64,000 nucleotides of DNA from Acidobacteriota bacterium (GTDB lineage: Bacteria; Acidobacteriota; Terriglobia; Terriglobales; Acidobacteriaceae). The stretch lies in NCBI GenBank assembly GCA_013289795.1, contig JABCZH010000004.1, positions 310,001 to 374,000 of the forward strand, given 5' to 3'. The notes under the pieces were generated by a model, which was not told the DNA's origin, made no database searches, and saw only the letters and a list, made by a program, of their open reading frames with translations. The translations under genes and the position numbers were made by a program. Positions 12,788 to 30,690 of the stretch are shown piece by piece (the stretch's first letter is position 1; each line of letters starts with the position of its first letter).

Positions 12788-12828
12788 GCCCGGGTGGCGA
12801 AATTGGCAGACGCACGGGACTTAAAATC
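12788..12828 (+). pseudogene. 5' part of the host tRNA-Leu(UAA) gene, split by the element (attL)
   Basis: These bases hold acceptor strand GCCCGGG, a D-arm of Leu type, the 5' anticodon stem CGGGA and the loop CTTAAAA with anticodon TAA, then TC. The expected 3' stem TCCCG is replaced by element sequence (TCGCA), so no tRNA can fold here. The missing 3' part, whose acceptor strand CCCGGGC pairs exactly with this one, is at 48379-48436. Rejoining the parts gives an 89-nt tRNA-Leu with encoded CCA. Confidence 0.92.
12819..12828 (+). repeat. Left attachment core (attL)
   Basis: ACTTAAAATC is the 10-base sequence shared with 48379-48388. It spans the anticodon loop and first stem bases of the split tRNA gene. 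It marks where tyrosine-recombinase strand exchange must have occurred. Confidence 0.85.
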
Positions 12829-12851
12829 GCACATTACACCTTGCTAATATT

Positions 12852-12940
12852 CATTATGTTATTGCTATACAACAACTTATTGACATAATGTCCGTCCGCG
12901 ATATACTTACACATGTCTTTCACACTTTCGTATTTTGAAA
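12852..12940. repeat. Left-end integrase arm region
   Basis: This AT-rich stretch between attL and the integrase gene holds an 8-base inverted repeat (CATTATGT at 12852, ACATAATG at 12883). It also has a CTTACACA motif at 12906-12913 and a CACACTTTC..ATTTTGAAA segment at about 12921-12940. The CTTACACA and CACACTTTC motifs recur near the right end (48299-48337). They are candidate arm-type sites for the integrase or an excision factor. Confidence 0.5.
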
Positions 12941-12959
12941 GACTGCGGAGGTATCCGCG

Positions 12960-14246
12960 ATGGCGGAACAATACGACATCCTGGGCGGCAAGGTTCACGT
13001 CTACAAACGCCCGAACAGCAGCCACTGGCAGTGCTCCAGCTATTTCGCCGGCAAGAACCGCCGGACGAGCACAAAGGAAGACAGCATCTCCAAAGCAAAA
13101 GAGATCGCCGAGGATTGGTATCTGCAACTGCGTGGAAAACTCCGCAGCGGAGAAATCAAAACAGAAAAAACCTTCCGCGAAGCATCAGAACTATTCCTTC
13201 GTGAATACGACATCATCACGCAGGGCCAGCGAAGTAAAGTCTACGTGGAAGGCCAACAGCGGCGCTCGCAGGGGCACCTTGTGCCGTTCTTCGGCCACTT
13301 CGGCCTTTCAGAAATCACCGCAGGCAAGATCCAGGACTACCGCATTCATCGCCACGAAGAGGCTGTAGCCAAACACGGCAAACCGCCGGCACACAACACC
13401 ATGCATCAGGAGATAGTGGCTCTTCGACAGACCCTGAAGACCGCCATCCGCCACGGATGGATCGATCACCTTCCCGATCTTTCCGAGCCGTACAGATCAT
13501 CGCCAAAAATCTCGCACCGGGCGTGGTTTTCTCCCGAGGAGTACAAGAAACTCTACGAGGCTACAAGAAAACGCGCGCATGAACCCAAGCAGGCGCGGTT
13601 CAAATGGGAATGCGAACAGCTTCACGATTACGTACTGTTCTCGGCCAACACGGGCCTCCGTCCTGATGAAGCGCGGCGCCTTCAATTCCGGGACGTGACA
13701 ATCGTTGAGGACGACGCGAGCGGTCAGACGATCCTTGAAATCGAAGTGCGCGGTAAGCGTGGAGTTGGTTACTGCAAAAGCATGAACGGCGCTGTGCGCC
13801 CGTTTGAGAGACTGAAAGCCAGATTACGTCCGCCACGCGCCTACGAAGACGGCAGGGGCGAGAAGGGGCCGAACACCATGAACAACGGCTCCGAAAAATG
13901 GTGCCTTCCGCAACCGACAGACCTCATTTTTCCGAAATGGCAGCGCGAGCTTTTCAAGACGATTCTGGACGAAGAAAATCTCAGGTTCGACCGCGAAGGC
14001 CGGCCGCGAACGGCCTACAGCCTGCGGCATACGTACATCTGTCTGCGCCTGATGGAAGGTGCCGATATCTACCAGATCGCCAAGAACTGCCGCACCAGTG
14101 TCGAGATGATCGAGAAATATTACGCGTCGCACATCAAGACGAATCTTGACGCCGCCGCGATCAACATCATGAGAGCAAAACCAAAAAAGAAGCAAAAACC
14201 ATCCGATCATTCCAGATCGACCAGAACCTCCGACACCGGAGACTAA
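12960..14246 (+). CDS. int: Tyrosine recombinase integrase
   Basis: A 428-aa phage-type integrase that should catalyse site-specific insertion and excision at the tRNA-Leu anticodon region. The N-terminal half carries arm-binding and core-binding SAM-like domains. The catalytic domain shows the first arginine (NTGLRPDEARRL), the H-x-x-R box as YSLRHTY, and the nucleophile tyrosine in MIEKYYASH near the C-terminus. The start has GCGGAGG about eight bases upstream. The gene lies 131 bases from attL, reading inward. The C-terminal 30 residues are Lys/Arg-rich. The intron-bearing tRNA-Leu gene begins 48 bases after the stop. Confidence 0.93.
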   Translation: MAEQYDILGGKVHVYKRPNSSHWQCSSYFAGKNRRTSTKEDSISKAKEIAEDWYLQLRGKLRSGEIKTEKTFREASELFLREYDIITQGQRSKVYVEGQQRRSQGHLVPFFGHFGLSEITAGKIQDYRIHRHEEAVAKHGKPPAHNTMHQEIVALRQTLKTAIRHGWIDHLPDLSEPYRSSPKISHRAWFSPEEYKKLYEATRKRAHEPKQARFKWECEQLHDYVLFSANTGLRPDEARRLQFRDVTIVEDDASGQTILEIEVRGKRGVGYCKSMNGAVRPFERLKARLRPPRAYEDGRGEKGPNTMNNGSEKWCLPQPTDLIFPKWQRELFKTILDEENLRFDREGRPRTAYSLRHTYICLRLMEGADIYQIAKNCRTSVEMIEKYYASHIKTNLDAAAINIMRAKPKKKQKPSDHSRSTRTSDTGD

Positions 14247-14293
14247 CGTGTAAATTCACCCTGCCTGCTCTATGATAGAAAACTGTAAACCGC

Positions 14294-14623
14294 GCGGGCG
14301 TGGCGGAATGGCATACGCAGCGGACTTAAGGAAAACTTGAGTGCTCGCCTGGGAAACCGGCGATGCAGAACTGCTCAAAGTCGGGGAACCCTGAAATGGC
14401 AATCCCGAGCCAAGCCCGGAGAAACACTCCAGCCGGGAAGGTGTAGAGACTAGACGGGCAGCACCTAAGCCCCGGATTCTTCCGGGGGAGGGTGAAGGGA
14501 TAGTCCAGACCGCAAACCTGGCGCGCGCCCTTAAAGGCCGCGTCCGGGCGGCGAAAGCCGTAGACGGCATGAAAATCCGCAGGGCTTCGGCCTGTGTGGG
14601 TTCGACTCCCACCGCCCGCACCA
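14294..14623 (+). tRNA. tRNA-Leu(UAA) interrupted by a group I intron, carried by the element
   Basis: The exons are 14294-14327 and 14572-14623 and splice to an 86-nt tRNA. The acceptor stem is GCGGGCG/CGCCCGC, the anticodon stem GCGGA/TCCGC, the loop CTTAAAA with anticodon TAA, the variable arm long (AGGGCTTCGGCCTGT), the T-arm GTGGG-TTCGACT-CCCAC and CCA is encoded. The intron enters after U34, the position used by the classic tRNA-Leu(UAA) introns of cyanobacteria and plastids. It differs clearly from the split host tRNA-Leu in acceptor, D and variable arms, so it is not a simple duplicate. It probably supplies the UUA-decoding tRNA lost through integration (inference). No promoter was identified; it may be read through from the integrase gene. 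Confidence 0.93.
14328..14571 (+). ncRNA. Group I self-splicing intron in tRNA-Leu(UAA)
   Basis: A 244-nt intron, close in size to the Anabaena tRNA-Leu intron. P1 is perfect: ACTTAAG at 14324-14330 pairs with CTTGAGT at 14336-14342, placing the required U.G pair at the 5' splice site (U14327 with G14339). P2 (TCGCC/GGCGA, 14345-14363) follows. The conserved P element is visible near 14391-14417 (AATCCCGAGCCAAGCCC), R near 14444-14461 (AGAGACTAGACGGGCAGC), a P8 hairpin near 14470-14488 and S near 14494-14508 (AAGGGATAGTCC). The last base is G14571, the omega-G. It encodes no homing endonuclease. Subgroup IC3 is likely from the insertion site and sequence. Confidence 0.92.
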
Positions 14624-14654
14624 CCGTTCATTGGTCCGTACCGGACAGACAAGC

Positions 14655-15815
14655 ATGAGCCTTTTTCCTGACAGTCGCGCGATTGTAGTCGGGCTGCCGA
14701 AGTCGTTTGACCTTCTCTCAGAACTCGCCTCGGCAGACAGGATTCGCCTCGGCACGGCGTTCGCACACTGGTCAGGATGGGAGATCCTCGAAACTGCTAT
14801 CTCCGGTTCAAAAGCGGAGATCTTCTTGCTCACGGGCACGAGTTTTTTCCAGACGGAGCCGAGGGTTCTGCGGGAATGGCAGAAGCTTTCCAGGTCAAAT
14901 AGCGTGAAGGCTGCCCTGCACGCTGAAAAAGGAGTTACGTTTCACCCCAAGGTTTTGATCGTCGAAGGCCGAAGGAACTTCGCGATTGTCGGCTCCGGCA
15001 ATCTCTCGCGGGGCGGCCTCCAAGGAAACGTTGAGTGCGCCGCTTTTGTTGAGTCGGGCGCAGTGTTGAGTGAATTGGTGCTGTGGTTTGATGGCGTTTT
15101 TGACGCTGCGGCCGAGCTGAGAGATGGCGTAATTTCAGATTACGAGCGGAAATGGAAATCGCTTCGCAAACGCGCCAAAGAGCTGCGCGACGAACAGCGA
15201 AAACTTCAAGATGACTTTGCAGCAAAAACTGCTGCGGTCATGCAGCGTTGGGACGATGCCGTCGCCGCTGCCAAGAAATACTTAAAATCGTCGGACTTCG
15301 AGGCGACCTACGAAAGCCGAAAAGCCGGAGGCAAGCGCATCAAGCAATTCCTCGATTACCCGGCGTTCGACTTTGATGTGGACGGGTGGAAGGGGTTCTA
15401 CACGGTCCAGGCGCTCGGCCATCTCATAGCCATTCGCAGGGATCGGGTTTTTCGAAAGAAGGACAAGCTTCAAGACGGTCTGAAAAAGCTCATCGGCGCG
15501 GACGGCCAGGTACCGAAGGTTCTGAACGAATTCCTGGCACCGCGAGGCAAGTATCGGATTGACGGCCTCGGATTGAATGCGATCAGCAAAGTCCTTGCTG
15601 TGCATGCTCCGCAAAAATGGACTGTCCATAACAAGCCCGTCGCGAAAGCCTTGAAGAAGTTCGGCTACATCCCTCCTCGGGGCGCTTCCGAAGCCGAAAA
15701 GTTCATGGCCTTTACGCAGATGATGGATACGTTCAAGGCAGCCACTGGCTTGCCCGACGCGTATGCTCTCGATGCCTTTTTCTATGATGTCTACTCGAAA
15801 TTGAAATCAGACTAA
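14655..15815 (+). CDS. PLD-family nuclease-like protein
   Basis: A 386-aa protein with one phospholipase-D-type HKD signature near residues 95-120: FHPKVLIVEGRRNF followed by AIVGSGNLSRGG, the H-x-K...GSxN pattern of BfiI/NucA-type nucleases, which act as dimers. Residues 165-205 form a charged coiled coil. The C-terminal 130 residues contain a helical segment (LGLNAISKVLAVHAPQKW) that may bind DNA. I use ATG 14655; a TTG at 14631 would extend it by eight residues. It follows the intron-containing tRNA by 31 bases. Proteins of this kind occur in restriction or defence loci, but its target is unknown. Confidence 0.7.
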   Translation: MSLFPDSRAIVVGLPKSFDLLSELASADRIRLGTAFAHWSGWEILETAISGSKAEIFLLTGTSFFQTEPRVLREWQKLSRSNSVKAALHAEKGVTFHPKVLIVEGRRNFAIVGSGNLSRGGLQGNVECAAFVESGAVLSELVLWFDGVFDAAAELRDGVISDYERKWKSLRKRAKELRDEQRKLQDDFAAKTAAVMQRWDDAVAAAKKYLKSSDFEATYESRKAGGKRIKQFLDYPAFDFDVDGWKGFYTVQALGHLIAIRRDRVFRKKDKLQDGLKKLIGADGQVPKVLNEFLAPRGKYRIDGLGLNAISKVLAVHAPQKWTVHNKPVAKALKKFGYIPPRGASEAEKFMAFTQMMDTFKAATGLPDAYALDAFFYDVYSKLKSD

Positions 15816-15882
15816 CGGCTTTGGGACCTATCTTTCCGGCCTCATAGCGAGGCAGGCCCACATCACACTGGAATTCCCGACT

Positions 15883-16197
15883 TTAAGGCTGGAGCCGGTT
15901 CCAGGGTTCCTGCTGCTCAGGCGGCAGTTCGCCAATCGATTTTATTCTTGTGACCTTTGCAATGTCGTCTGCAAACCGCGTTTCTATTTTCCGCATGAAG
16001 GACTCCGTGCAACAGACGCTGACGGCGGGTCTGGATAGAATGTGGTCGATGCATTGCACGTCCGGCAGACAGCCGGTCTCGGAGCCGACCCATTGTTCGA
16101 GCGCCCGTTTGAAACCGCCGGATATGGTCATTTGCTCAAATATCCCGGCATTCTCAGCGCAGGCGAGTTCTATGTGATAGTTGCCCAGTTGTTCCAC
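15883..16197 (-). CDS. Small hypothetical protein
   Basis: A 104-aa frame on the minus strand with a mixed, soluble composition (MEQLGNYHIELACAENAGIF) and no recognised motif. The reverse frame is short and has no better candidate. It sits in a cluster of three small minus-strand genes between the PLD nuclease and the ABC importer. I do not recognise it. Confidence 0.4.
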   Translation of the reverse strand: MEQLGNYHIELACAENAGIFEQMTISGGFKRALEQWVGSETGCLPDVQCIDHILSRPAVSVCCTESFMRKIETRFADDIAKVTRIKSIGELPPEQQEPWNRLQP

Positions 16198-16271
16198 GGA
16201 ATGCGGACCTTTTAAGTTTTAAGCCAATCTGCCCATGATGGAAAAGCGGGGCAGGGGATGACCACAGACAA

Positions 16272-16532
16272 TTACAGCGCTTTCTTTGGCAGGCCGGTGG
16301 TTTCATACACTACTCTGACGCCCTGATGGCGGTCAGGAAGATTTATCTTTTCTTCCGGCGTCGGGGCATGATCGAGGTTAACTTTGATGCCCCATTCAGC
16401 AGTATTGATGCGGGTCAGGCCGATGCCGACGACGGGGCTGGCGACATCAGCAAAATCCCTGGCCAGTTTTCCCTTGAGATCTTCCTTGGCTGCACGTGCC
16501 TGATCGAGAGTAACCGCTGAAAACTGGGACAT
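16272..16532 (-). CDS. Small conserved-looking protein
   Basis: An 86-aa protein beginning MSQFSAVTLDQARAAKED, with a VVGIGLTRI...WGIKVNL segment that looks like a folded beta core. An AGGAAG box precedes the ATG by four bases. It sits in a run of small minus-strand genes. No function assigned. Confidence 0.6.
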   Translation of the reverse strand: MSQFSAVTLDQARAAKEDLKGKLARDFADVASPVVGIGLTRINTAEWGIKVNLDHAPTPEEKINLPDRHQGVRVVYETTGLPKKAL

Positions 16533-16692
16533 GGTTTCTTCCTTTTGTTCCTACCTGTAGGTGAACACTTCTTTGGGTTCGAGTTTCGGCAACTTATGAC
16601 ACCGCTATAACCCAGTCAACAGGTATTCGCACGTTGCAGCAGTGGATGGTCCACCGCGACATCGCCTCAATCACTGTTCGCTTGAATCAATC

Positions 16693-16893
16693 TCAGCGGG
16701 ACACGCGGCCCACGACCGAAATCTTCAGAGCCATTGATCCCGTTGGCTCAAAAGTGACAATCAGGCCCGCCTCGGGCGTGATTGTCGAAGAACCCCAGTC
16801 TGCCTTGGAGAAGTGATACTTCTTCCCGTCGTGGGTTTTTATAACACCCATCTCCATATCGACAGCGTAGGCAAAAACTGTTCCATCGCTCAT
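16693..16893 (-). CDS. Cold-shock-domain-like small protein
   Basis: A 66-aa protein with an order of residues resembling an OB-fold cold-shock domain: MGVIKTHDGKKYHFSKADW, then PEAGLIVTFEP and a closing beta strand (ALKISVVG). The RNP aromatic motif is only partly present, so nucleic-acid binding is a guess. It lies 184 bases from the divergent ABC importer operon. Confidence 0.55.
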   Translation of the reverse strand: MSDGTVFAYAVDMEMGVIKTHDGKKYHFSKADWGSSTITPEAGLIVTFEPTGSMALKISVVGRVSR

Positions 16894-17077
16894 CTTTCAA
16901 TCATGAAAACAAAAAGCCTGCCCCGCAAGACCTTTTCCGGGCCATCTTTATATTGGAGGGCAGGGGCGGGTACCACCATCCTTCAGATAGTCCATCGTCG
17001 ATGAAATCCTTGTCGAATTACCGCACCGCACAAACGAATCTGTTTGACGTTATTCCGAGAATCTTCGAATAAGAATC

Positions 17078-17740
17078 ATGAACGTCTTTGACATTCTGGC
17101 AAACTACTACCCCGCCTTCCTCAAAGGCCTCTCCGTCACTCTACAACTCTGCGCGGTCATCTGGGGCAGCGGGCTAATCCTCGGCAGCCTGCTCGGCCTC
17201 GCTGGCGCGAAAATCGCGCCTGTGGCCTTCGCCAGCCGCAGCATATCCTTCGTCCTCGGCTCTGTCCCGCTGCTGGTCTTCTTGTTCTGGCTGCATTATC
17301 CGGCGCAGGCGATGTTCGATGTGGTCATCGACCCGTTCTATACTGCGGCCTTTACATTTTCCGTCGTCAACATTTTCGGGGTCGCCGATGTTGTGCGCGG
17401 CGCGCTGTTCGATTTTCCCCGCCAGTACCTGACGGCCGCGAAAGTCACCGGCCTTACTCCGCGCCAGACCGTCTTCAAAATCCAGCTACCGTTGATCCTG
17501 CGCGAAATCCTGCCGACCCTGATGCTGCTGCAGGTCAGCATGCTGCACGTGACGCTGTTTGCCAGCTTGATCTCGGTAGAGGAGATCTTCCGCGTCGCCC
17601 AGCGTATCAACGCCCAGATATATCGTCCGGTAGAGATTTACACGGCGCTCGGCGTCTTTTTCCTCGCCGTATGCCTGCCGGTCAACGGATTCGCCTACTG
17701 GCTGAAAAAACGCTATACACGGAATTTATCGGAGCATTAG
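17078..17740 (+). CDS. Amino-acid-type ABC transporter permease
   Basis: A 220-aa inner-membrane permease of the HisM/GlnP type with about five hydrophobic segments. It has the cytoplasmic EAA loop that docks on the ATPase (YLTAAKVTGLTPRQTVFKIQ). Only one permease is encoded, so it would have to homodimerise. It is the first gene of a five-gene importer operon; the next gene begins 11 bases after its stop. Confidence 0.85.
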   Translation: MNVFDILANYYPAFLKGLSVTLQLCAVIWGSGLILGSLLGLAGAKIAPVAFASRSISFVLGSVPLLVFLFWLHYPAQAMFDVVIDPFYTAAFTFSVVNIFGVADVVRGALFDFPRQYLTAAKVTGLTPRQTVFKIQLPLILREILPTLMLLQVSMLHVTLFASLISVEEIFRVAQRINAQIYRPVEIYTALGVFFLAVCLPVNGFAYWLKKRYTRNLSEH

Positions 17741-17751
17741 CAGGGGATTTT

Positions 17752-18591
17752 ATGAAAAGAAGATTCATTCTGACGGCACTTCTAACCCTGACGGCCCTGC
17801 CCGCGTTCGCGGCCGGACCTGCTATCGACCGTGTGAATGGTAGCAATTCCTTGCGCTGCGGCTATGTCGAATATGAACCCGCCTTGACCAAGGACCTGAA
17901 GACCGGCCAGTGGCACGGCTTTGACTACGACATCGTTCAGGCGATCACCAATCGTCTGGACCTCAAGACCGAGTACGCGGCCGCGACCGGTTGGGGCACG
18001 GTCGCAGCGGACCTGAATGCCGGAAAATTCGACATGCTGTGCTCGACTTTCTGGGTGCATCCGAACGTGGCCAAGTTCGCGCTGTTTTCACGGCCCGCCT
18101 ATTTCCAGCCAGTCTTTCTTGTCGCGCGGACGAACGATTCGCGGTTTGACGGGACGCACCTCCTCAACGATCCGACGCTGACGATGGTCGCGGTCGATGG
18201 GGATAATCCGGTCGCCATCGCCAAGGCGGATTTTCCGCAGGCAAAAATTTCCACCCTACCGAACATGACAGATCCATCCCAGGTGCTCCTCGCCATCGCA
18301 GATGGCAAGGGTGATTTTACGATTACGGACGCCATGACGTTCGGCGATTACGCGGAGCATAATCCGGGCAAACTTCACATAGTCAATCCGGACCGGCCCG
18401 TCCGCGTCTATCCGTCAAGCTACGTCTTCCGTTCCGACGACGGCCAGTTGCGCGACGCCGTCAACGCCGCCCTGGACGAGTTGATTCTCGACGGCACGAT
18501 CGACCGCATCATGAATAAATACGATACCCATCCGAATGGCTATTACCGCGCGACCGTGCCGTATCGGAATCCTTATAAGCAGGAAAAATAA
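17752..18591 (+). CDS. Periplasmic solute-binding protein 1 (family 3)
   Basis: A 279-aa secreted binding protein of the polar amino acid class. It begins with a clean signal peptide (MKRRFILTALLTLTALPAFA), then the family opening RCGYVEYEP and a type II periplasmic fold with GTVAADLNAGKFDMLCS. ATG 17752 is preceded by AGGGG; the frame extends upstream but only into the permease. It is the first of three consecutive binding proteins for one permease. Confidence 0.85.
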   Translation: MKRRFILTALLTLTALPAFAAGPAIDRVNGSNSLRCGYVEYEPALTKDLKTGQWHGFDYDIVQAITNRLDLKTEYAAATGWGTVAADLNAGKFDMLCSTFWVHPNVAKFALFSRPAYFQPVFLVARTNDSRFDGTHLLNDPTLTMVAVDGDNPVAIAKADFPQAKISTLPNMTDPSQVLLAIADGKGDFTITDAMTFGDYAEHNPGKLHIVNPDRPVRVYPSSYVFRSDDGQLRDAVNAALDELILDGTIDRIMNKYDTHPNGYYRATVPYRNPYKQEK

Positions 18592-18648
18592 TGCCATGAG
18601 ATGCTGCTGCCCGCGTGATTATCAGCCGGAATAAAAACGGAGAACCCG

Positions 18649-19500
18649 ATGAAAACATTCCTGAACAAATGGGTGCCTGCACTTGTGCTACTGCTTCTGC
18701 TGCCTGGCATTGCCCGAGCGGCCGACGTGGGGAAAGAATCCGTCTATGACCGCGTCATGCGCATCGGCACGATCCGTTGCGGCTATTTTCTGTGGCCGCC
18801 GTTTCTGGAGAAAGATGTCAATACAGGCAAGATGAGCGGCGCGTCCTACGACATTATGGAGGAAATCGGCAAGCAGTTGAGCCTGAAAATCGACTGGGCC
18901 GAGGAAATCAATTTTGCCTCGATGTTCGAAGGCTTCGCGAGCGGCCGCTATGACATGATCTGCGGCCCGATGTCGCCGACGCCGGCTCGGGCGCGGGCTT
19001 CGGATTTTACTATCCCGCTGTTCTACACGACCTATGACTTGTACGTCGGAGGCAAGGACACCCGCTTCGATAAGAACCGTGCGGCGCTGAACGATCCAGC
19101 GCATAAGTTTGCCGGGCTCGACGGCGAATTCACGTCGATCATCGCGCAGGAGGATTACCCGCGCGCGACCTATTTTTCTGTGCCGCAGCTTTCGGACGCC
19201 AGCCAGCTACTGATGACGCTGGCGACCGGCAAGGCCGACGTGACCGTGACCGACCCGATGACCGCCAATAAATTCATGGAGCAGAACCCAGGGAAAATCC
19301 GCCGCCTGCCTGGCCCGTCGGCGCGCGTCCTGGCGGTAACCTTCGCCATCCCACTGGGCGAGGAGCGGTTTAAGACCATGCTCAACCTGGCCAGCCAGAG
19401 CCTGCTCGACAGCGGTTTTGTCGAGCGCATCTTGGAAAAATATCCGACCGCTGACAAAACCATGCTCCGCGTGGCGAAACCCTATGAGGTACAAAAATGA
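18649..19500 (+). CDS. Periplasmic solute-binding protein 2 (family 3)
   Basis: A 283-aa paralogue of the preceding protein, with signal peptide (LLLLLPGIARA) and the same opening pattern RCGYFLWPPFLEKDVNTG. It carries GFASGRYDMICGPMSPTP in the ligand-domain region. It is closer to binding protein 3 (YDRVMRIGTIRCG against FDRVMRTQTLRCG) than to protein 1. Its stop overlaps the next start as ATGA. Separate specificities for the three paralogues are likely but cannot be read from sequence. Confidence 0.85.
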   Translation: MKTFLNKWVPALVLLLLLPGIARAADVGKESVYDRVMRIGTIRCGYFLWPPFLEKDVNTGKMSGASYDIMEEIGKQLSLKIDWAEEINFASMFEGFASGRYDMICGPMSPTPARARASDFTIPLFYTTYDLYVGGKDTRFDKNRAALNDPAHKFAGLDGEFTSIIAQEDYPRATYFSVPQLSDASQLLMTLATGKADVTVTDPMTANKFMEQNPGKIRRLPGPSARVLAVTFAIPLGEERFKTMLNLASQSLLDSGFVERILEKYPTADKTMLRVAKPYEVQK

Positions 19501-20330
19501 AAAAAGTTCTTCTGATTGCTTTCCTTTCCCTGATCGCCGTCCCGGCCTTCGCCGCCGACGCGCCGAAGGAATCCGCCTTTGACCGCGTCATGAGGACGCA
19601 GACCCTGCGCTGCGGCATGATGCTGTGGCCACCCTATTTCGAGAAGGACCCGAACACGGGCGCGATTCATGGCTATGCCAAGGATTTATCGGACGGTGTT
19701 GCCAGCCTGCTCGGTGTCAAGATCGAGTATGTCGAGATCGTGCCGGGACAGCAGGTCGAGGAACTGAAGGATGGCCGTGTCGACGCCGTCTGCGATGATG
19801 GGCCGTATGTCTTTTCGGAGATGAAGTTCCTTGATTACACCAGTCCGCTCTATTACGTGCCGGTCTTCGCCTACGGCCGCGCCGATGAACAGCGGTTCAA
19901 GTCGCAGGGCGATCTCAACCACAAGGATGTGCATTTCATCGGAATGGACGGCGATCTGAGCGTTGCGCTGGTACAGCGGCGGTTTCCGCAGGCGACGCTG
20001 TCTACATTGCCCAGCACAACGGATTCCGGCCAGTTGATGCTGAACGTGAAGGATAAAAAGGCCGACATCACGATCATCGATCCGCCATCGGTTGCGACCT
20101 TCAACGCCAGCAACCCGCCCGGCGTTAAAGCGGTCGCGGGCGGCGAACCCGTCGCCATCTACCCGGTCGGATTCTCCGTGAAGAAGGGGGATGCGGAATT
20201 AGCGCTGATGATCAATTCCGGAATCGCGGCGCTGTGGAATACCGGTGAGGCTGCGTCCATCCTCCATAAATACGATCCCAGAGGGACGATGTTCTATGGC
20301 GTCGCCAACGGCTACCGGCCGATGAAATAG
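19497..20330 (+). CDS. Periplasmic solute-binding protein 3 (family 3)
   Basis: A 277-aa third binding protein with signal peptide (LIAFLSLIAVPAFA) and RCGMMLWPPYFEKDPNTG. The family arginine region is changed here (DAVCDDGPYVFSEMKF). It overlaps protein 2 by four bases and is followed immediately by the ATPase, with no gap. Divergence from protein 2 suggests different ligands for a shared permease. Confidence 0.85.
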   Translation: MKKVLLIAFLSLIAVPAFAADAPKESAFDRVMRTQTLRCGMMLWPPYFEKDPNTGAIHGYAKDLSDGVASLLGVKIEYVEIVPGQQVEELKDGRVDAVCDDGPYVFSEMKFLDYTSPLYYVPVFAYGRADEQRFKSQGDLNHKDVHFIGMDGDLSVALVQRRFPQATLSTLPSTTDSGQLMLNVKDKKADITIIDPPSVATFNASNPPGVKAVAGGEPVAIYPVGFSVKKGDAELALMINSGIAALWNTGEAASILHKYDPRGTMFYGVANGYRPMK

Positions 20331-21062
20331 ATGCTCACTGCCCGTGCCATCCACAAGGCTTTCGGCGAAAAGCAGATCCTGCGAGGCGTCGATGTGGCGG
20401 TGGCACCGGGGCAGATCACTTGCGTGATCGGGCCGTCCGGCACGGGCAAAACGACGCTGCTACGTGCATTGGCGTTTCTCGATTATCCGGATGAGGGGAC
20501 CGTGACGCTTGATGACCGGACCTATGATTTTCCTCGCCAACCCAGACAAGCTATCACGCCACCGCCCTGGCCGCAGGTGACGGCGGTTTTCCAGTCCTTG
20601 TTCCTGTGGCCGCACCTCACCTTGCGCGAAAACATCATGCTACCGGCGCGCAATCATAGCCCGGAACGAGCGGAAAAGGATATCGAAGGTCTGGCTGCGT
20701 TTTTCGAGATGGGCGGTTTTATCGACCGCTATCCTAACGAAGCGTCGGTCGGCCAGCGGCAACGGGCAGCGTTGGCTCGCGCGTTGATCCTCAACCCGCG
20801 CTATCTTCTGCTCGACGAAATCACGTCCGCCCTCGATATTGAACAGACAGCACGCATTCTGACGAAGCTGGAGCACCTGAAAGACCGCAATATCGGCATG
20901 TTGTTGATCACCCATGCAATCGGCTTTGCTCGCCATGCCGCCAACCACATCGTTTTCATGGACGGAGGACAGGTAATGGAACGGGGCCCGCCCGGCATTC
21001 TCGACGCGCCGAAAACGGAACGGCTAAACAATTTTCTTTCCCTTGTCCGCGCAGCACAATGA
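20331..21062 (+). CDS. ABC transporter ATP-binding protein (amino acid type)
   Basis: A 243-aa ATPase that should power the importer. Walker A is GPSGTGKTT. The signature is ASVGQRQRAALARA, a departure from the usual LSGGQ. Walker B is YLLLDEITSALD and the switch histidine is in LLITHAIGFARH. The ATG directly abuts the stop of binding protein 3. It is the last clear transport gene; the synthetase-like gene starts 65 bases on. Confidence 0.9.
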   Translation: MLTARAIHKAFGEKQILRGVDVAVAPGQITCVIGPSGTGKTTLLRALAFLDYPDEGTVTLDDRTYDFPRQPRQAITPPPWPQVTAVFQSLFLWPHLTLRENIMLPARNHSPERAEKDIEGLAAFFEMGGFIDRYPNEASVGQRQRAALARALILNPRYLLLDEITSALDIEQTARILTKLEHLKDRNIGMLLITHAIGFARHAANHIVFMDGGQVMERGPPGILDAPKTERLNNFLSLVRAAQ

Positions 21063-21127
21063 AAATCATCGCCGCATTAGAACGAGAGGATAATTCGCCA
21101 CTTTGTTAATCATGTGATCGGAAAAGA

Positions 21128-21913
21128 ATGGTTGAAAATGTTTCAGGACACTCCTGTCTGACCCGGCAGGCCGCGCTGCTTTCTTCCCTGAAGGATGTAA
21201 CCCCGTTTGAACTCGGAGAAGCGGCAACGCACTTGCGTCGTTTCTTTTCATCGATGCAGTTCCGGGAGATGGTTCTTCACCCTTTCGACGCCTACCCCAT
21301 GGATTATCAGGATGCAGTGTTAGACGTGCCGAGCATCGGACAGCTACGCTTCAACACAGAGCCAGAAATATGGGGTGGAGGCAAGCTGCCCGAGCGTTTT
21401 TACTCCATTAGCAGTTTGTTCCGAAAAGAAAAAGAGAAAAATCTGTTACGTCGTTCGGCTTTTTTTATTGTGGATTTTTACCAGCCTGGTCCACCCGACT
21501 CCATGCTGCCTATTTTTCACGCATTGCTCCAACAATTGGCAGAAGCGGGGTTCGGGGAGCATTTGCATCGCCTGCCATTTGATTATGCCGAATACGATCC
21601 TGTTGCCGACTGTCCGCGACTTTCCTCTTTTGAGACACGATGGGTGGTGACGAAAGGGTATGATGCCGCACATTCTTTCTTTGAAGTCGATGAAAGGGGG
21701 GCGTCCACCCGGAATGAAGTATTCTTGGTGACTCCTTTGGGATACTTGGAAATCGGCGCTTTCGGGATAACCGGCTTGAATAAAAACCCGCGTTATATTT
21801 TTCGCACAGGGGCCGCCAGCTTGCCCATGCCTCCTGTGCATCGCAGTGGCATGGGTTTGGGCTTTGAGCGCTTGCTGCTTGCCGATCGGATTCTCTCCAT
21901 ATTATTGGGGTAA
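21128..21913 (+). CDS. Free-standing class II aminoacyl-tRNA-synthetase-like catalytic domain
   Basis: A 261-aa protein with class II synthetase signatures of the Asp/Asn/Lys group. Motif 2 appears as RFYSISSLFRKEKEK, with the arginine that contacts ATP, followed by FFIVDFYQ. Motif 3 is SGMGLGFERLLLA at the C-terminus. There is no anticodon-binding domain, so it is a paralogue rather than a housekeeping synthetase. Known paralogues of this kind modify proteins (EpmA), make asparagine (AsnA) or charge atypical acceptors. It follows the amino-acid importer on the same strand and may act on the imported compound (inference). Not recognised more precisely. Confidence 0.65.
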   Translation: MVENVSGHSCLTRQAALLSSLKDVTPFELGEAATHLRRFFSSMQFREMVLHPFDAYPMDYQDAVLDVPSIGQLRFNTEPEIWGGGKLPERFYSISSLFRKEKEKNLLRRSAFFIVDFYQPGPPDSMLPIFHALLQQLAEAGFGEHLHRLPFDYAEYDPVADCPRLSSFETRWVVTKGYDAAHSFFEVDERGASTRNEVFLVTPLGYLEIGAFGITGLNKNPRYIFRTGAASLPMPPVHRSGMGLGFERLLLADRILSILLG

Positions 21914-22104
21914 ACCCAACATTTTTGTCACCAGGGGCCATCTTATTTAGGAAAATTAACCCAAATCAGTGCCGTTCCGCCGAGCCCGGTATCAACCCAT
22001 ACAGACGGAAGGAGCCCCTTCCAGTCAGTTCATATATTTATTACGTCGTTGACTGCTTGACTGTTTTGTTTAGGTTAGTTCCTTGAGGGCGAGAGAAAGA
22101 GCGC

Positions 22105-22338
22105 ATGGACGATTACTTACAGCCGCATCGGGCAGCATCCTGGTGCAAAGCAAGAAAACTTCCTGTCATAGAAAACTCACTGCAACGTGAGTTGGTCCGA
22201 ATCGTGACAGTGCTGCAAAAGGCCATCTACGCCGACGAGGAATCCATCCCGCGTGAAGTCAGGGTGTACTACCAGGCGCTCAAGTACATCGCCTCTGTTG
22301 CGGGCGCTCCCGAGGGCCGAGAGTGGTATGGGAACTGA
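22105..22338 (+). CDS. Small hypothetical protein
   Basis: A 77-aa soluble protein (MDDYLQPHRAASWCKARKLP) with a mainly helical look and no known motif. A GAGAGAAAGAG purine stretch precedes the ATG. It stands alone between the synthetase-like gene and the convergent XRE regulator. Unrecognised. Confidence 0.5.
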   Translation: MDDYLQPHRAASWCKARKLPVIENSLQRELVRIVTVLQKAIYADEESIPREVRVYYQALKYIASVAGAPEGREWYGN

Positions 22339-22496
22339 TGCATCCGGTCGGTTCGCTACTTTCACATGATGCCCCTCACCCGCACGATATGTAAATAAAA
22401 CCGCGAACCCGCTCTGAAAACTAGGAATAAATTCCCATAAGATACATTATCACTCTGTGGTTGCGTTATGGATAAGGTGCAATCTTGAGTTGTAAC

Positions 22497-22853
22497 CTAG
22501 CCCCGCTTCTTCCTTAAAAACGCCACGTAATCCTGAACCGCTTGTTTCTGTGGCTCCGGCAACGCATTGTATTTGTTCACAAGGGTAAGTTGTTCCGGTG
22601 CCAGCTTCAGGGCGTCATTGCGAACCGCGCCCTCGATGCCATCATAAAAATCATCAACGTCAATTTTCAGAATTTTCGAGAATTGCCAGAGCCGGGATGC
22701 ACTGATGCGGTTCGTGCTCTTCTCGTATTTTTGAATCTGCTGGAACGTCACGCCCACGGCCTCCGCCAGTTGTACCTGACTCATGCCGCGCAATAGCCGG
22801 AACTTGCAGAGATTTTCCCCTACCTTTTTATCGATGTCAGTCGCTGCACGCAT
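22497..22853 (-). CDS. XRE-family helix-turn-helix regulator
   Basis: A 118-aa DNA-binding protein. The HTH is clear: VGENLCKFRLLRGMSQVQLA, then the recognition helix and VTFQQIQKYEKSTNRISASR, followed by a helical C-terminus ending YVAFLRKKRG. This form is common in Alphaproteobacteria. I use start 22853 because the domain begins there; the frame extends to 22985 with unconvincing sequence. It may control element genes such as excision or transfer (inference). Confidence 0.82.
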   Translation of the reverse strand: MRAATDIDKKVGENLCKFRLLRGMSQVQLAEAVGVTFQQIQKYEKSTNRISASRLWQFSKILKIDVDDFYDGIEGAVRNDALKLAPEQLTLVNKYNALPEPQKQAVQDYVAFLRKKRG

Positions 22854-23158
22854 GACCCTTCCCGTTTGTTGTTTCTTCCTAACATACGGGGCGGCCCTTT
22901 GGTGCCGAGAGGTTTGTACCGCCAGTAACCGGCGAACGACGTATTTCCCTTGCGGGTGTTGCATTCCGCCGTCCTCTCGACCCAAGGGTGCGAGAGGAGC
23001 AAAGCGTAAATACGCGCTCCAAAACGTATGGTTACGAGGGGTACAAATCCCCGTTACAGGGAAAGATTATCAGCAGGATCAGGAAGGGCCAAACGCTATA
23101 TTCATATCAGGAAAGGCCGACGAGTTCCTAAAGCAAGTAGCCCTGAACGTGGACATAA
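22854..23158. other. Intergenic region without a supported gene
   Basis: 305 bases between the XRE regulator start and the end of the nuclease operon. It should contain the XRE promoter. A T-arm-like stretch (GGGGTACAAATCCCC at about 23038) is present, but no tRNA can be built around it. Confidence 0.3.
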
Positions 23159-24094
23159 TCATCCAGGAACTGATTTCTTCAAGCTGTCGTTAGCCCCTAT
23201 GAGCGACGGCCTGAAGTGCACCTCCAAGCCGTAGTTAACAATCTCGACCATGGGTTTGCGGAGGGCCTCCATTACGACCGTGCCGGACAGCTTCGCCGCG
23301 CCCCCGTGGATGAGAATGCCTCTCGGGGTCTGCCCGGTCTCCTCTTGGAGAAGCTTCATGTAGTGCCGAAGCTGCGAGATATCTTGGATCGTTGGCGCGC
23401 TTTGCTTGCACTCAACGATGACTGGCATGTTCGCCTTGTCGATGAGCAGCACGTCTAGCCGAGTCCGATCCTTGAACACCCGCTCACGGATCTTAGAGTT
23501 CGGGTGAGGAAGGAGGCCATCCTCAAGCCGGTTTGGGTAGTTAGCAATGTAGTCAGACAGTGCCTTCTCGTACCTGAAACTCCCGAGCAGGCTCACCCAG
23601 TTCGTCGGGTCGTTCATGTCGGTGCGCACGGCTTCAAGAGTCTGGGACTGAACACGTGACACCGTTGGTCGCAGTTCGCCGTTGGAAAACGTTCTCCCAG
23701 GTGGTAGCTGGACCACCAGATCTTGACTCTCCGGCCCTGTCGTCAGGTCCCATCGAACAAGAATCCTCCTTCCCATTTCACCGTCAGGCAAGCCGGGACC
23801 AGGGGGGACCAAGGGGTTCCAGTCGGTGTCCTCAATGGCCTTCGCCGTAATCTCGCCGAGGCGGCCAACCTTGTGACCTCGTAGTGCCACGACAACGTAG
23901 TCGCCGGGCCGCATTTCCTGGATTGCATTCCGTGCGGCACTCCAACCGCGTCCGCCATCAGTCTTGCCCTGGAGTTTGAAGCCCCACTGCGCCGCCCACC
24001 CGACAGCAACACACTGGTTCTTGTACCAGCGCTGCCACATGCCTGGGTACACGTCCTCTTGGCACGCCACCTTCCACAGGACTGGTATCGTCAT
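23159..24094 (-). CDS. EVE-like / PD-(D/E)XK nuclease, candidate modification-dependent restriction enzyme
   Basis: A 311-aa protein. The N-terminal 110 residues look like an EVE/PUA-type domain (MWQRWYKNQCVAVGW, RPGDYVVVALRGHKVGRLGE), a fold that binds modified bases. The C-terminal part has a PD-(D/E)XK core of the NucS/DUF91 type: RLDVLLIDKANMPVIVECKQ, with D and E-x-K, then a helix with QLRHYM. This layout matches type IV, modification-dependent restriction enzymes. It is the last gene of a three-gene minus-strand operon, four bases after the GGCT-like gene. Confidence 0.75.
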   Translation of the reverse strand: MTIPVLWKVACQEDVYPGMWQRWYKNQCVAVGWAAQWGFKLQGKTDGGRGWSAARNAIQEMRPGDYVVVALRGHKVGRLGEITAKAIEDTDWNPLVPPGPGLPDGEMGRRILVRWDLTTGPESQDLVVQLPPGRTFSNGELRPTVSRVQSQTLEAVRTDMNDPTNWVSLLGSFRYEKALSDYIANYPNRLEDGLLPHPNSKIRERVFKDRTRLDVLLIDKANMPVIVECKQSAPTIQDISQLRHYMKLLQEETGQTPRGILIHGGAAKLSGTVVMEALRKPMVEIVNYGLEVHFRPSLIGANDSLKKSVPG

Positions 24095-24097
24095 CGG

Positions 24098-24718
24098 CTA
24101 ACCTCCCTGCTGCCGGGTCTTCAGGCGCGGCGTTTTTTTGCGCCGCCTGTTAACCGGCTTTGAGAACCACGGTTCGTGTTGCAACGCAGACCGTACTGCC
24201 GTCTGCACGAACTCGGGTGCTCTCCACACGTACTCCGCAGCCTTCGCTTTTCCGGCAGGGCTCAGGGTCTTTACGTAGGCGACGACCGCCTTCACGGAGA
24301 ATGTTTTTTTAACCTTCTCCTTGAAGTTGCTCTTTAGTGCTGTCCAAACGACGGCGTCGAGCTTCCTTTCCCTCGCCCACGCGACAATTGGGTCTTCTTT
24401 TTCGATAGTATTCGGCAGCGCAGGTTTGTCGTCAACGCGAACGTAACCTATGTTCGCCTTCGTCGTACCCTCACGGCATTGGAGGTCCGCGACTGCATCC
24501 TCAAGCTTCGCCCGCTTGCTGAGGCACCAAGCCACTGGCGTGGAGAATCCATGCTCAGTATCGATCACGAGAGTCAAGGCGCCGAACCGTTTTTCGGAAA
24601 CTCTGGAGAATTCAATCTTGAAGGTGGGTCCATCGTATTGCCACGGTTCGATCCAATTGTCGAACTCCGGGCCGCCCTCCCACAGAAGGGAACCCCAACC
24701 GAGGATGGCGATTTTCAT
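24098..24718 (-). CDS. GGCT-like protein of the nuclease operon
   Basis: A 206-aa protein opening with MKIAILGWGSLLWEGG. This resembles the YGSL signature of gamma-glutamylcyclotransferase (AIG2-like) folds, where the loop binds a gamma-glutamyl or related amine; the tyrosine is replaced by tryptophan here. The C-terminal 35 residues are very basic (NRRRKKTPRLKTR), suggesting nucleic-acid contact. Start 24718 fits the fold, but ATG 24784, overlapping the ATPase gene by 20 bases, is also possible. It lies between the ATPase and the EVE-like nuclease. Function in this operon is unknown. Confidence 0.6.
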   Translation of the reverse strand: MKIAILGWGSLLWEGGPEFDNWIEPWQYDGPTFKIEFSRVSEKRFGALTLVIDTEHGFSTPVAWCLSKRAKLEDAVADLQCREGTTKANIGYVRVDDKPALPNTIEKEDPIVAWARERKLDAVVWTALKSNFKEKVKKTFSVKAVVAYVKTLSPAGKAKAAEYVWRAPEFVQTAVRSALQHEPWFSKPVNRRRKKTPRLKTRQQGG

Positions 24719-24764
24719 TTTTTTCTTTTTCACGTTTTCTGCCGGTTTTCGTTGCGCATAGTCG

Positions 24765-27320
24765 CTACGCCTTGTGGGGCTCACGCGCCTTGAGAACTAT
24801 TTCGTAGTCAGCCTTCAGTTCATCGAGTGTAGGCCGAATGCCCTGTGTTTCGGGGGGCTGAGAATGGGACGCTATGTAACGACAGCTCTTCTCGAAAACA
24901 GGCATTATCGCGGCCATGCTTTCCTGCAGCTTGCCCACATTTATCTTGTCCAGCTTCGTCATCATCACGTTCGGCGCGTATCTTTGGACGACGCCCTTGA
25001 GCATTTCGTGCTCCACTACGATTTCGGAAAGTCCTCGGAGTTCTTCATATCCTTTCTCGACCAAGGCTGCTTTGATTTCGCCCTCCTGTTTCTCAGCGCC
25101 ATCAATCATCTTCTTAACCCTGGCGCTGACCTGCGCGATGGTGTCCACGCGGGGATGGGACGCCGCCGTCACCACGCCGGCATCGCCGCCTTCCAGTCTG
25201 ATGTCGTAGTACTTCCAGTTCTTCTTGTCGGCTTTACCGAGCAACTCGGCTGCGAACCAGATATTGTGGGTGAAGACGATAATCTGATGGTCTTCGGCAA
25301 GAGCGACGATGCGGTCGCAGACCTCATGAATGCGTCGATAATCCATGCTCGTTATTGGGTCATCAAAGACCACCGGCGAGGACGCAGGCACTGACGTGAC
25401 TTCTGCCAGAAAATCAGCTAACGCAAGAGCCTTCTGCTCGCCTTCCGAGAGAACCTCACTCGGTTTGTATGAGGCGACCAGCTTCCGCCGTGTCACTTGC
25501 CCCTGACGGCCGGGGAAGTTCAATGTCACGTTCGGCGCGCGCAGCCGCTTGCACTCGTCTTCAAAGCGTCTCCCGAAGTCCTTATTAAGAAGTTCCTCGC
25601 TCGCCTCCTTGGCGGCGTCAGTCAGGGACCGGAGAACACCTGTCAGATTGCTTTTGACAATTGTCGCCCTGCCGACCCATTTGGCATCCGACACCCGCTT
25701 CTCGATTTGCGGCAGCAGAGTATTTGCCGTCTTCTTCCCCTGCAACTCGGTCAATTCCGTCTGTTTCGCCTTCAGGGCTGCCTGCCGCTCTTCAACAGAT
25801 CTCTGAAGACCGGTAATAAGCGCGGTCAGCCTGGTCTCCTCCCCGGACACGACGGTTTCAGCCGCAGCGAGGGAGGGATCTTTGTCCTTCCAGTCAATCG
25901 CTGAGCGAGCTGCAACAGTGAGGTTGAGCCTCTTCATCTGGTCTACAACGGCTTTGACCGGGTCCAGAATATCCGCTCCGCCGTTCGTTTCAGCGGTAAG
26001 CTGCTGCTGAAGCGTGTCCGCCTCGATGTCGACGACGGGCGCGACGTAGTCGCGAAGCTGACGTTCAGCGGTATCGAGAGCCGCCTTGATCTCGTTATTT
26101 GAGAAATCGCGATACTTCTTGATCAGTTCCACGGCCTTGGCGGTCAGCGGTTGCTGGCAGTAGGCGCAGGGATCGTCTGTGCCTGGATATTTTCCGGTCG
26201 TGTTTTTCTTGAGATATTCCTCGCCGGCTTGTATGAACTGTCGCCATTCCCCGCTCAGAATGCCGGGGATTCCAAGCCCCTCGAAAGCCTTGTTGCCCGC
26301 CTCATCGTGCCGCCGGGATGCCTGATCCCGTGCCTGCACGCGAGAGGCGTATGTCGTGATATCAAATGCCTTCGCTGTCTCGATCGCTGACTTGAGCGCT
26401 TTCACAACGACCGCCCGGTCGCGCGAACGCTTCAATTCGTTCTGTCTGTTCGACGACTTGAGGGCGTCGACCTCGATTGCCAAGGATTCAATGGCAGCGT
26501 CGATCTTCTCGGGCAGAGCGGCGTATTTCCTTATCTCGTCCAGGTCAGTCGCCGCTCCCAGAGTCTCGATGATGGGGTAGATGGAACAAGAGCGGTCGAA
26601 CGAGACCAGAATCGTATTCGGTCCTGGAGTCCTGGCTATTATTGCTGCCTCAAAAGCCGTACGCACCCGCTCTATTCCGTTCTGGACCAAAGGGAAGAGC
26701 GTAAGCTCGCCAGGAGTGTAGACGTATGTGAGATCGTCCTCTACATGAAGGCGCGCGCCCCTCGCATCGAAGATGCTCATACGATTGAGTGGCGTAATGC
26801 CAAATTCGTTTTTCCACGGAATCGTCTGGCCCGTGCTCCCAACCATGACCGTAAAACCCGCACTCGGCGTCGGCCGCTTGTCAGCACGAACATTGTGAAG
26901 AATGTCCTCGGCGGTTCTGAGGCCAGCCGCGCGTTTCAAAACACGGACGAAACCGGACTTTCCGGAACCATTCTCTCCAAAGATCACTGTCACGCCCGGA
27001 GCGAAATCAATTTGCGCGCCGGGCTTGAGCGCATTCACGCCGTCGCCAACCTTTAGCGAATCCAAGCGGACCGCGTCGAGCGGGTTCCCAGCGAGTTGCT
27101 TTTCCTCAATTTTCGGAACGGCTTGGAAAGGCTCTGGCGAGAGCTTTTTCTCCGATAGCAGCAGTTTTAGATAGCGGTCAACGTCGAGATCGGACGGCTG
27201 GAGCCTGTTCTTGAGAACATCGCCCGCAATTGCGCGGGACCATCCATCTTGGTCGTTTGCCCACCGGGGCAGGAGCGCGCGCGACGCCTGGGCGCCAGCC
27301 TGTTCTTGTTGATTTGGCAT
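24765..27320 (-). CDS. SMC-like AAA ATPase with C-terminal HEPN ribonuclease motif (RloC/PrrC-like)
   Basis: An 851-aa ATPase. Walker A is GENGSGKS at residues 115-122. A long coiled coil is interrupted by a CAYCQQPL zinc-hook-like turn. The ABC signature is LSEGEQKALALADF, Walker B is SPVVFDDPITSMD, and a switch motif FTHN follows. The C-terminal domain has an R-x4-H pattern (RYIASH at 814-819) and an upstream RGLSE, as in HEPN nucleases. Zinc-hook ATPases with such a tail include RloC, an anticodon nuclease activated by DNA damage or restriction alleviation. A GGAAGGA box precedes the ATG. tRNA cleavage is plausible but not shown. Confidence 0.75.
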   Translation of the reverse strand: MPNQQEQAGAQASRALLPRWANDQDGWSRAIAGDVLKNRLQPSDLDVDRYLKLLLSEKKLSPEPFQAVPKIEEKQLAGNPLDAVRLDSLKVGDGVNALKPGAQIDFAPGVTVIFGENGSGKSGFVRVLKRAAGLRTAEDILHNVRADKRPTPSAGFTVMVGSTGQTIPWKNEFGITPLNRMSIFDARGARLHVEDDLTYVYTPGELTLFPLVQNGIERVRTAFEAAIIARTPGPNTILVSFDRSCSIYPIIETLGAATDLDEIRKYAALPEKIDAAIESLAIEVDALKSSNRQNELKRSRDRAVVVKALKSAIETAKAFDITTYASRVQARDQASRRHDEAGNKAFEGLGIPGILSGEWRQFIQAGEEYLKKNTTGKYPGTDDPCAYCQQPLTAKAVELIKKYRDFSNNEIKAALDTAERQLRDYVAPVVDIEADTLQQQLTAETNGGADILDPVKAVVDQMKRLNLTVAARSAIDWKDKDPSLAAAETVVSGEETRLTALITGLQRSVEERQAALKAKQTELTELQGKKTANTLLPQIEKRVSDAKWVGRATIVKSNLTGVLRSLTDAAKEASEELLNKDFGRRFEDECKRLRAPNVTLNFPGRQGQVTRRKLVASYKPSEVLSEGEQKALALADFLAEVTSVPASSPVVFDDPITSMDYRRIHEVCDRIVALAEDHQIIVFTHNIWFAAELLGKADKKNWKYYDIRLEGGDAGVVTAASHPRVDTIAQVSARVKKMIDGAEKQEGEIKAALVEKGYEELRGLSEIVVEHEMLKGVVQRYAPNVMMTKLDKINVGKLQESMAAIMPVFEKSCRYIASHSQPPETQGIRPTLDELKADYEIVLKAREPHKA

Positions 27321-27452
27321 TAACCAGATCCTTCCAAAGGGACATCGTACTCTGTTAGAAACTCCCTGACCTGTCCACTCAGATCGCGCCCGTTCCGTGC
27401 GGGGGCCGCGTACTTTCGCCTTATATTCGCCTCATGGTATACAATTCTACTG

Positions 27453-27752
27453 ATGCCGGATCGTTGGTGCACAGTCACAGTCACGGAGGCCGCGGGGCGA
27501 CGCTATAGTCTTGACCTCCTCGCCTCCAGCACCTACGACGCGGCGCATCTGTACGTGGCCCACGTTAAGGAACAACCGCGCGGGCGCTCGTCATTTCCGA
27601 TCCCCACCGTCGCGACGGTTTTCGAGGTCGCCACAAATGGCGCCGTCTACCGCGTCACGGGAAAGGCCCTGCAGCAATGGATCGAGCGCCGCCGCCATGC
27701 ATGGAATGGCCCAAAGGGTGCCATCTTTCGTAAACGTCCAGGTCTGGAGTAG
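27453..27752 (+). CDS. Small conserved protein of acidobacterial type
   Basis: A 99-aa soluble protein (MPDRWCTVTVTEAAGRRYSL, then STYDAAHLYVAHVK). The pattern resembles a small protein I associate with Acidobacteria; this was not checked by search. It is divergent from the ATPase operon, 132 bases away. If truly acidobacterial, it is host-derived cargo inside an element whose transfer genes look proteobacterial. Function unknown. Confidence 0.6.
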   Translation: MPDRWCTVTVTEAAGRRYSLDLLASSTYDAAHLYVAHVKEQPRGRSSFPIPTVATVFEVATNGAVYRVTGKALQQWIERRRHAWNGPKGAIFRKRPGLE

Positions 27753-27847
27753 CCGATCATGTCACGATTGCACCATTTATTGTCTATTGCTTCCGTGCAG
27801 CACGGTGGTGTAACGTGGTGCAACACACAAAACCGGGGTTTGTTTCC

Positions 27848-28051
27848 ATGCCTGGACCAAAACGCAAGCCGCAGAAAACCAGGATATCCCGTTCTCCCCG
27901 GACATCTGTTACGTTCCCCCCTGATATTTACCAGACCCTTGAAGATCTGGCCAAGAAAAAGAAGGTTTCCGTCGCCTGGGTTGTCCGTGACGCAGCCGAA
28001 AAATACATTGCCGAGCAATGGCCGTTGTTTGCGGGGTCGAAAAATGGCTAG
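27848..28051 (+). CDS. Ribbon-helix-helix regulator of the restriction cassette
   Basis: A 67-aa CopG/Arc-type protein: basic N-terminus, a beta strand (RTSVTFPPDIYQTLEDLAKK) and second helix (VSVAWVVRDAAEKYIAEQW). It overlaps the methylase start by eight bases, so it probably controls expression of the restriction-modification cassette. Start taken at ATG 27848; the frame opens earlier at 27815. Confidence 0.7.
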   Translation: MPGPKRKPQKTRISRSPRTSVTFPPDIYQTLEDLAKKKKVSVAWVVRDAAEKYIAEQWPLFAGSKNG

Positions 28052-29216: not shown

Positions 29217-29217
29217 C

Positions 29218-30153: not shown

Positions 30154-30551
30154 AGGAAGCAGCAGAAGACCGCAGCCGCATTATGCGCGCGGTCAAGAGC
30201 CGCGATACGTACCCAGAGTTGGTAGTACGACGTTTGCTCCACGCAATGGGCTACCGCTTCCGCTTGCACCGCTCTGATCTGCCCGGAAAACCCGACATCG
30301 TGCTACCAGGGCGCCAAAAAGTTATATTTGTCCACGGCTGTTTCTGGCACGGTCATCCCTGTGCTCGCGGTGCACGCGAGCCAAAAAACAACGCTCGCTA
30401 CTGGCGCGACAAAATTGCCAGGAATCGAGCGCGAGATTCCTCTTGCCTCCGGCAGCTTCAAACTGTCGGATGGAAGACACTGGTCATCTGGGAATGCCAG
30501 CTAAAAGGCGAAACGCGCCTAACAACGCGTCTCCGCCGTTTTCTGAGATAA
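30150..30551 (+). CDS. vsr: Very short patch repair endonuclease
   Basis: A 133-aa Vsr homologue, which nicks beside T:G mismatches left by deamination of 5-methylcytosine. The family core is complete: MRAVKSRDTYPELVVRRLL, then the metal-binding aspartate in LPGKPDIVLPG, and VIFVHGCFWHGHPC with the catalytic histidine and zinc ligands. It starts with GTG overlapping the preceding stop (GTGA). It closes the methylase, DUF4928, Vsr cassette. Confidence 0.93.
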   Translation: MKEAAEDRSRIMRAVKSRDTYPELVVRRLLHAMGYRFRLHRSDLPGKPDIVLPGRQKVIFVHGCFWHGHPCARGAREPKNNARYWRDKIARNRARDSSCLRQLQTVGWKTLVIWECQLKGETRLTTRLRRFLR

Positions 30552-30690
30552 CGTGGAATGAGCAGCAACTATAAAACGACTTCGGGCAAGACTCTCGATC
30601 AGCGGCGAATACCAACGCGATCCGTCAAGTCGCCCTGTCGCTCTGGCATGAATCGTGATAATACAAGAAGATTCACAAGGGAGATCATTG

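Follow-up and report, generated by a model that had tools for sequence, protein, structure and literature searches.

What protects a replacement tRNA gene from the integrase of the element that carries it? The question is raised by an integrative and mobilizable element of about 35.6 kb in an Acidobacteriota genome (GenBank assembly GCA_013289795.1, contig JABCZH010000004.1). It lies in the window analysed here, which is the whole stretch of 64,000 nucleotides (nt) from positions 310,001 to 374,000 of the forward strand. The element is inserted in the host tRNA-Leu(UAA) gene and carries, behind its integrase gene, a tRNA-Leu(UAA) gene of its own with a group I intron within the core of the attachment (att) site. 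We consider it probable that this represents tRNA-dependent integration with a replacement tRNA gene that would be invisible to its own integrase. The features on which the argument depends are the following.

12788..12828, + strand: attL, 5' half of the host tRNA-Leu(UAA) gene, ending in the core ACTTAAAATC at 12819-12828
12829..48388, no strand: mobile element of about 35.6 kb, integrative and mobilizable with defence cargo, delimited and typed by its att sites, mobilization genes and defence genes
12960..14246, + strand: integrase (tyrosine recombinase), 428 amino acids; its start is about 130 bp past the end of the core
14294..14327, + strand: 5' exon of the element-borne tRNA-Leu(UAA), ending in ...GGACTT (through U34), from ARAGORN
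14328..14571, + strand: 244-nt group I intron within the att core, separating positions 34 and 35, from RF00028 (E 1.8e-9) and ARAGORN
14572..14623, + strand: 3' exon of the tRNA, AAAATCC...CACCA, from ARAGORN
48379..48437, + strand: attR, the core (48379-48388) plus the displaced 3' half of the host tRNA-Leu(UAA) gene
48507..48562, + strand: second core plus a tRNA-Leu 3' half, 128 bp past attR

A replacement tRNA gene split within the integrase target

The insertion point is the anticodon loop of the host tRNA-Leu(UAA) gene, of which two halves are left. When joined in silico, the attL and attR halves give a canonical tRNA-Leu(taa), and neither half alone is called by ARAGORN; judging by their sequences, both are non-functional. 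As expected of tRNA-dependent integration, the target tRNA is not rebuilt at either junction and the core is short (10 bp). Across relatives the shared core shrinks further, to about (A)CTTAAAA, which is the 7-nt anticodon loop. Within the window ACTTAAAATC occurs four times (12819, 48379, 48507 and 15280) against 0.08 expected. The copy at 15280-15289 lies inside the PLD-domain gene of the element, has no tRNA or stem context, and is probably a chance occurrence.

Based on its predicted fold and catalytic R...R-H...Y, the integrase is a tyrosine recombinase. The AlphaFold model (pLDDT 80) matches Tn1549 Int, XerH, lambda Int, XerA and Cre (E 4e-8 to 1e-4, prob 1.00), and R234, R356-H357 and Y388 are invariant in 33 relatives. 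The closest integrase relatives are from Terriglobia and Acidobacteriaceae. Pfam gave only a weak SAM-like match (PF13102), and no sequence relative was found in the PDB. In all 83 attL sites read, G30-A31 precedes the loop on the host side, whereas the attP-derived positions 39-40 vary (TC in 60, GC in 12, others in the remainder). From this constancy on one side and variation on the other, we infer that the overlap region is the anticodon loop, with the integrase half-sites in the two stem strands.

The element-borne tRNA-Leu(UAA) gene (14294-14623) starts 47 bp after the integrase gene. ARAGORN calls it only with introns allowed, as tRNA-Leu(taa) with a 244-nt intron ('gactt-Intron-aaaat'); over the whole window, ARAGORN without introns and Rfam at the gathering threshold gave no match at all. 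Spliced in silico, the 86-nt tRNA folds as tRNA-Leu(taa) and the core is restored. The claim with which this work began, that in the element tRNA a group I intron of 244 nt interrupts the 10-bp core after ACTT, is confirmed by ARAGORN and RF00028. The intron matches the whole RF00028 model at 41.6 bits, below the gathering score of 50; relatives score 51-62 bits, and the introns of loci L069, L021, L066 and L077 pass the gathering score. When 25 relatives are aligned, the U.G wobble of P1 at the 5' splice site is present in 25/25, and 36 of the 85 predicted intron pairs show a compensatory change. The terminal G of the intron precedes AAAAT. The covariance model, the wobble pair and the terminal G place the intron in group I, and it is expected to splice. 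Across relatives it measures 204-281 nt, which leaves no room for a homing endonuclease, so it does not qualify as a homing intron. Matches to tmRNA and RAGATH-28 over the tRNA gene were sub-threshold and were discarded. No sigma-70-like promoter was found ahead of the tRNA, which says little in this phylum.

Other tRNA-Leu genes in the same genome, a draft that is 99.9% complete, have the anticodons CAA, CAG and GAG; a census by sequence patterns and RF00005 found no further UAA gene. The UUA codon is readable only by a UAA anticodon, so the element gene would keep UUA codons readable, and its role as the replacement is strongly supported. It is diverged from the host gene throughout and has a different acceptor stem. 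Separately, no tRNA-Leu(UAG) is among the called tRNAs of this genome; it may be missing from the draft or bear an intron.

In the mechanism we propose, the recombinase places the element in the one tRNA-Leu(UAA) gene of the host, at the 7-nt anticodon loop, as can be read from the junctions. Since only about 10 bp are shared with attP, the host gene is cut into two dead halves. The element brings a complete tRNA-Leu(UAA) behind the integrase gene, the sole remaining UAA gene by sequence and presumably the functional one. Having the same anticodon, a replacement necessarily has the same loop, and the integrase of the element would find a new attB in it. If exposed, the gene could receive the element itself or a second copy, or serve for the excision of a partial element; any of these events would destroy the last UAA gene. 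The intron would part the integrase half-sites by 244 bp in the DNA, so that the integrase would be unable to use the split gene, and self-splicing of the RNA would restore the tRNA, as the comparison below supports. Intronless relatives appear mostly to reach the same end via changes in the 30:40 or 31:39 pair or at loop base 32.

Introns and altered stems among related elements

From 80 integrase relatives plus wider samples we collected 122 distinct integrase loci, spanning Acidobacteriota, Alphaproteobacteria, Gammaproteobacteria, Planctomycetota and others, and obtained 72 readable replacement genes with the anticodon UAA or CAA. The replacement tRNA-Leu lies directly behind the integrase gene in most elements that target tRNA-Leu(UAA); in L078 and L083 the intron-bearing tRNA is elsewhere on the element or nearby. 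The att core contains an intron in 52 of the 72 (51 UAA, 1 CAA), and 20 are intronless (3 UAA, 17 CAA). The expectation that replacements always carry an intron in the att core is thus false.

The intronless copies differ in another way. The stem pairs flanking the core (30:40 or 31:39) are altered in 13 of these 20 and in none of the 52 with an intron (Fisher p 1.1e-9), compared with about 5/295 host tRNA-Leu genes from the same phyla, a background counted by eye from rows of which a few may be element-borne. A pattern search that did not presume GA found GA at positions 30-31 in 50/50 intron genes. Positions 30-38 are identical to the element's own attL in 45/47 genes with an intron and in 3/14 without (p 6e-8). 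The intronless copies include the following.

C30-G40 swap: L042, L050, L056, L057, L062, L149
T31-A39 swap: L049, L061, L162, L164
G31.T39 swap: L038-L040
Loop base 32 differs from own attL, stem kept: L080, L151
Exposed replacements, no core mismatch shown: L153 (UAA); L045, L142, L051/L052 (CAA), the attL of L051 and L052 being decayed

The intron and the stem swap look like alternative ways to an unrecognisable replacement. An unlikely alternative is that the element captured a tRNA-Leu(UAA) that already had its ancient intron, in which case intron and integrase would each favour the anticodon loop, their overlap would be coincidental and the intron neutral. Group I introns of tRNA-Leu(UAA) classically sit at position 34/35, so the exact overlap with the att core is less improbable than it looks; the intron of this gene in cyanobacteria and plastids is described in PMC4476775. 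In addition, nearly all of the introns are in UAA genes, and their sequence is conserved across relatives, which suggests few origins. Such a capture does not predict the changed core-flanking pairs of intronless relatives. Nor does it predict the enrichment of the intron on elements, where it is present in 51 of 54 UAA genes, whereas many UAA genes of hosts from these phyla lack it. A third observation that it leaves unaccounted for is the tRNA-Leu(CAA) replacement of L077 (7463-7783), which has a group I intron of its own at 33/34, unlike the UAA intron in site and sequence; this speaks against the history of the anticodon as the only cause.

The divergence between the two tRNA genes of the element and host, including their acceptor stems, would also fit a block on homologous recombination or gene conversion between them, brought about by the intron and the divergent stems and having nothing to do with the integrase. 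We regard this as very improbable: homologous recombination has little to act on in a tRNA of about 86 nt, and core-adjacent pair changes are frequent in intronless copies and absent from intron-bearing ones. Somewhat less remote, though still improbable, is that the intron shields mainly against other elements or phages aimed at tRNA-Leu anticodon loops. The same attB is used repeatedly, as indicated by the second core and 3' half at 48507 and by tandem 5' halves in another genome (described below), and protection of this kind has been proposed for archaea in PMC3293823. The stem swaps, scored relative to the att core of the element itself, fit avoidance of self equally well; both effects can act together.

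Several observations weigh against a replacement that has to be hidden from its own integrase. The stem is unaltered in 7 of the 20 intronless copies, 5 of them without a demonstrable core mismatch, so exposure is tolerated at least for some time. The intact 10-bp core at 15280 is tolerated inside the element, which means that 10 bp alone are probably not enough for recognition. The presence of the intron is confounded with the anticodon, as UAA genes hold 51 of the 52 introns and the position is ancient there. Mapped onto the integrase tree, the stem swap requires 9 changes, at least 4 of them on well-supported branches, and the intron requires 21, at least 13 of them on such branches; well-supported branches offer 2-4 independent contrasts, none of them contrary and too few for significance. 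The association between intron and stem swap is thus repeated, and shared ancestry may still contribute to it. Five host genes have altered stems without an adjacent integrase of this family. Finally, the phages Unicorn and Vendetta, found with a core-containing query, keep an intact core.

Taken together, the original prediction that the intron hides the replacement from the element's own integrase is supported by the stem counts, the intron frequency on elements, L077 and an intron too short for a homing endonuclease, and it does not hold as a strict rule. Intronless replacements with an intact core, which it held should not occur, were found in the five exposed loci listed above. Its strict form fails on these, and its general form, that the replacement must be unrecognisable, is strengthened. 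With somewhat less assurance than for this element, we lean towards a broader statement: elements that destroy and replace a tRNA would share a self-targeting problem, to which two or more independent solutions (an att-core intron; a swapped stem pair or loop base) would have arisen repeatedly, and tRNA-Leu group I introns would then be kept as integrase blockers, a function unrelated to homing.

Altered stems were also considered as a mark of element-borne genes, an idea that failed for the five host genes. Two Acidobacteriaceae host tRNA-Leu(CAA) genes (L186, G036:C13:106172; L187, G007:C15:18593) have T31-A39 and not A31-T39. They could be resistant attB alleles; elements targeting CAA genes are common in that family.

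Relation to known systems

Guerrero-Bustamante and Hatfull (2024, PMC10865867) described tRNA-dependent lysogeny in mycobacteriophages and demonstrated by deletion that it requires the phage tRNA. Phage Gaia has its tRNA-Leu(CAA) directly behind the integrase gene, as in the element here. Unlike those phages, ours is a mobilizable element in Acidobacteriota with an integrase of another family, a target that in its family is mostly tRNA-Leu(UAA), and a group I intron in the core. Three phages with experimentally demonstrated tRNA-dependent lysogeny, unrelated to the element, agree with a replacement that differs from its own attP.

Gaia, L191 9121-9203: tRNA-Leu(CAA) with C32, attP with T32
Fionnbharth, L195 4844-4919: tRNA-Lys with G31-C39, attP with A..T
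LeBron, L194 301-375: tRNA with C31-G39, attP with A..T

This phage comparison is partly biased, as the BLAST query held an intact core. The sections of PMC10865867 considered here do not discuss how a phage tRNA escapes its own integrase. The differences in core or flanking pair of the three tRNAs are likewise not remarked on in those sections.

The element is not itself a temperate phage. Among the element open reading frames (ORFs) scanned there are no phage structural genes, and a relaxase, a coupling protein and ArdC are present; the mechanism is shared, and 'lysogeny' in the strict sense does not apply. A phage origin was dropped, as the integrase has no relatives in IMG/VR and no close relative in phages. 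Like the Islander islands (PMC4383910), the element uses a tyrosine integrase to enter a tRNA gene; unlike those islands, it does not restore the tRNA.

Like the tRNA-Leu(UAA) group I introns of cyanobacteria and plastids, the intron is in the same gene, after U34, and has no ORF. The cyanobacterial intron is in a chromosomal gene, whereas this one is on a mobile element and falls on the integrase target. For archaea, a protective role of tRNA introns against integration was put forward in 2008 (Randau and Soll, as cited in PMC4390854 and PMC3293823), and PMC3293823 also suggests that an intron brought by an element protects that element. In both the archaeal genes described there and the present one, a tRNA intron removes the integration target; the archaeal introns are spliced by protein enzymes, and the passages considered here describe no replacement tRNA and no stem-swap alternative. 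Thus, the idea of hiding is not new in principle. In the open-licence literature, what appears new is the combination of a replacement tRNA, an intron in the att core and an alternative stem swap. If true, this reading gives introns in bacterial tRNA anticodon loops a concrete function, makes the 2008 proposal directly testable in an easy bacterial system, and names a problem common to all elements and phages that replace a tRNA. The range of tRNA-dependent integration also widens, from actinobacteriophages to an element family across several phyla.

Other insertions, elements without replacement and cargo

The second core and 3' half at 48507-48562 are what remains of an earlier insertion into the same attB. 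In another genome (G345:C12, 53335 and 69552), two tRNA-Leu(CAA) 5' halves lie 16 kb apart on one strand, corresponding to tandem insertions at one attB. An empty site with matching flanking genes was not found in three related genomes.

Some family members lack a replacement. Fourteen acidobacterial elements inserted in tRNA-Leu(CAA) have no tRNA behind the integrase gene. The UUG codon can still be read by the UAA tRNA through wobble, and the CAA tRNA is expected to be dispensable. Members inserted in tRNA-Met, tRNA-Arg and tRNA-Phe rebuild the gene at the junction and are without a replacement tRNA-Leu. Two elements, L025 (6001-7594) and L126, are inserted in tRNA-Leu(CAA) yet carry a UAA replacement with the intron; in these the target has switched and the tRNA was kept.

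Further genes of the element concern mobilization and defence, the latter in the region 23159-32388.

23159-24094, - strand: NucS-like nuclease, defence cargo
24765-27320, - strand: ATPase of the candidate system PDC-S06, defence cargo
27759-30153: C5 methylase with DUF4928 restriction enzyme, defence cargo
30655-32388: GmrSD/HEC-06, defence cargo
36275-37204: ArdC
37748-39445: relaxase
42961-45996, - strand: coupling protein
46414-47091: NikA-like protein
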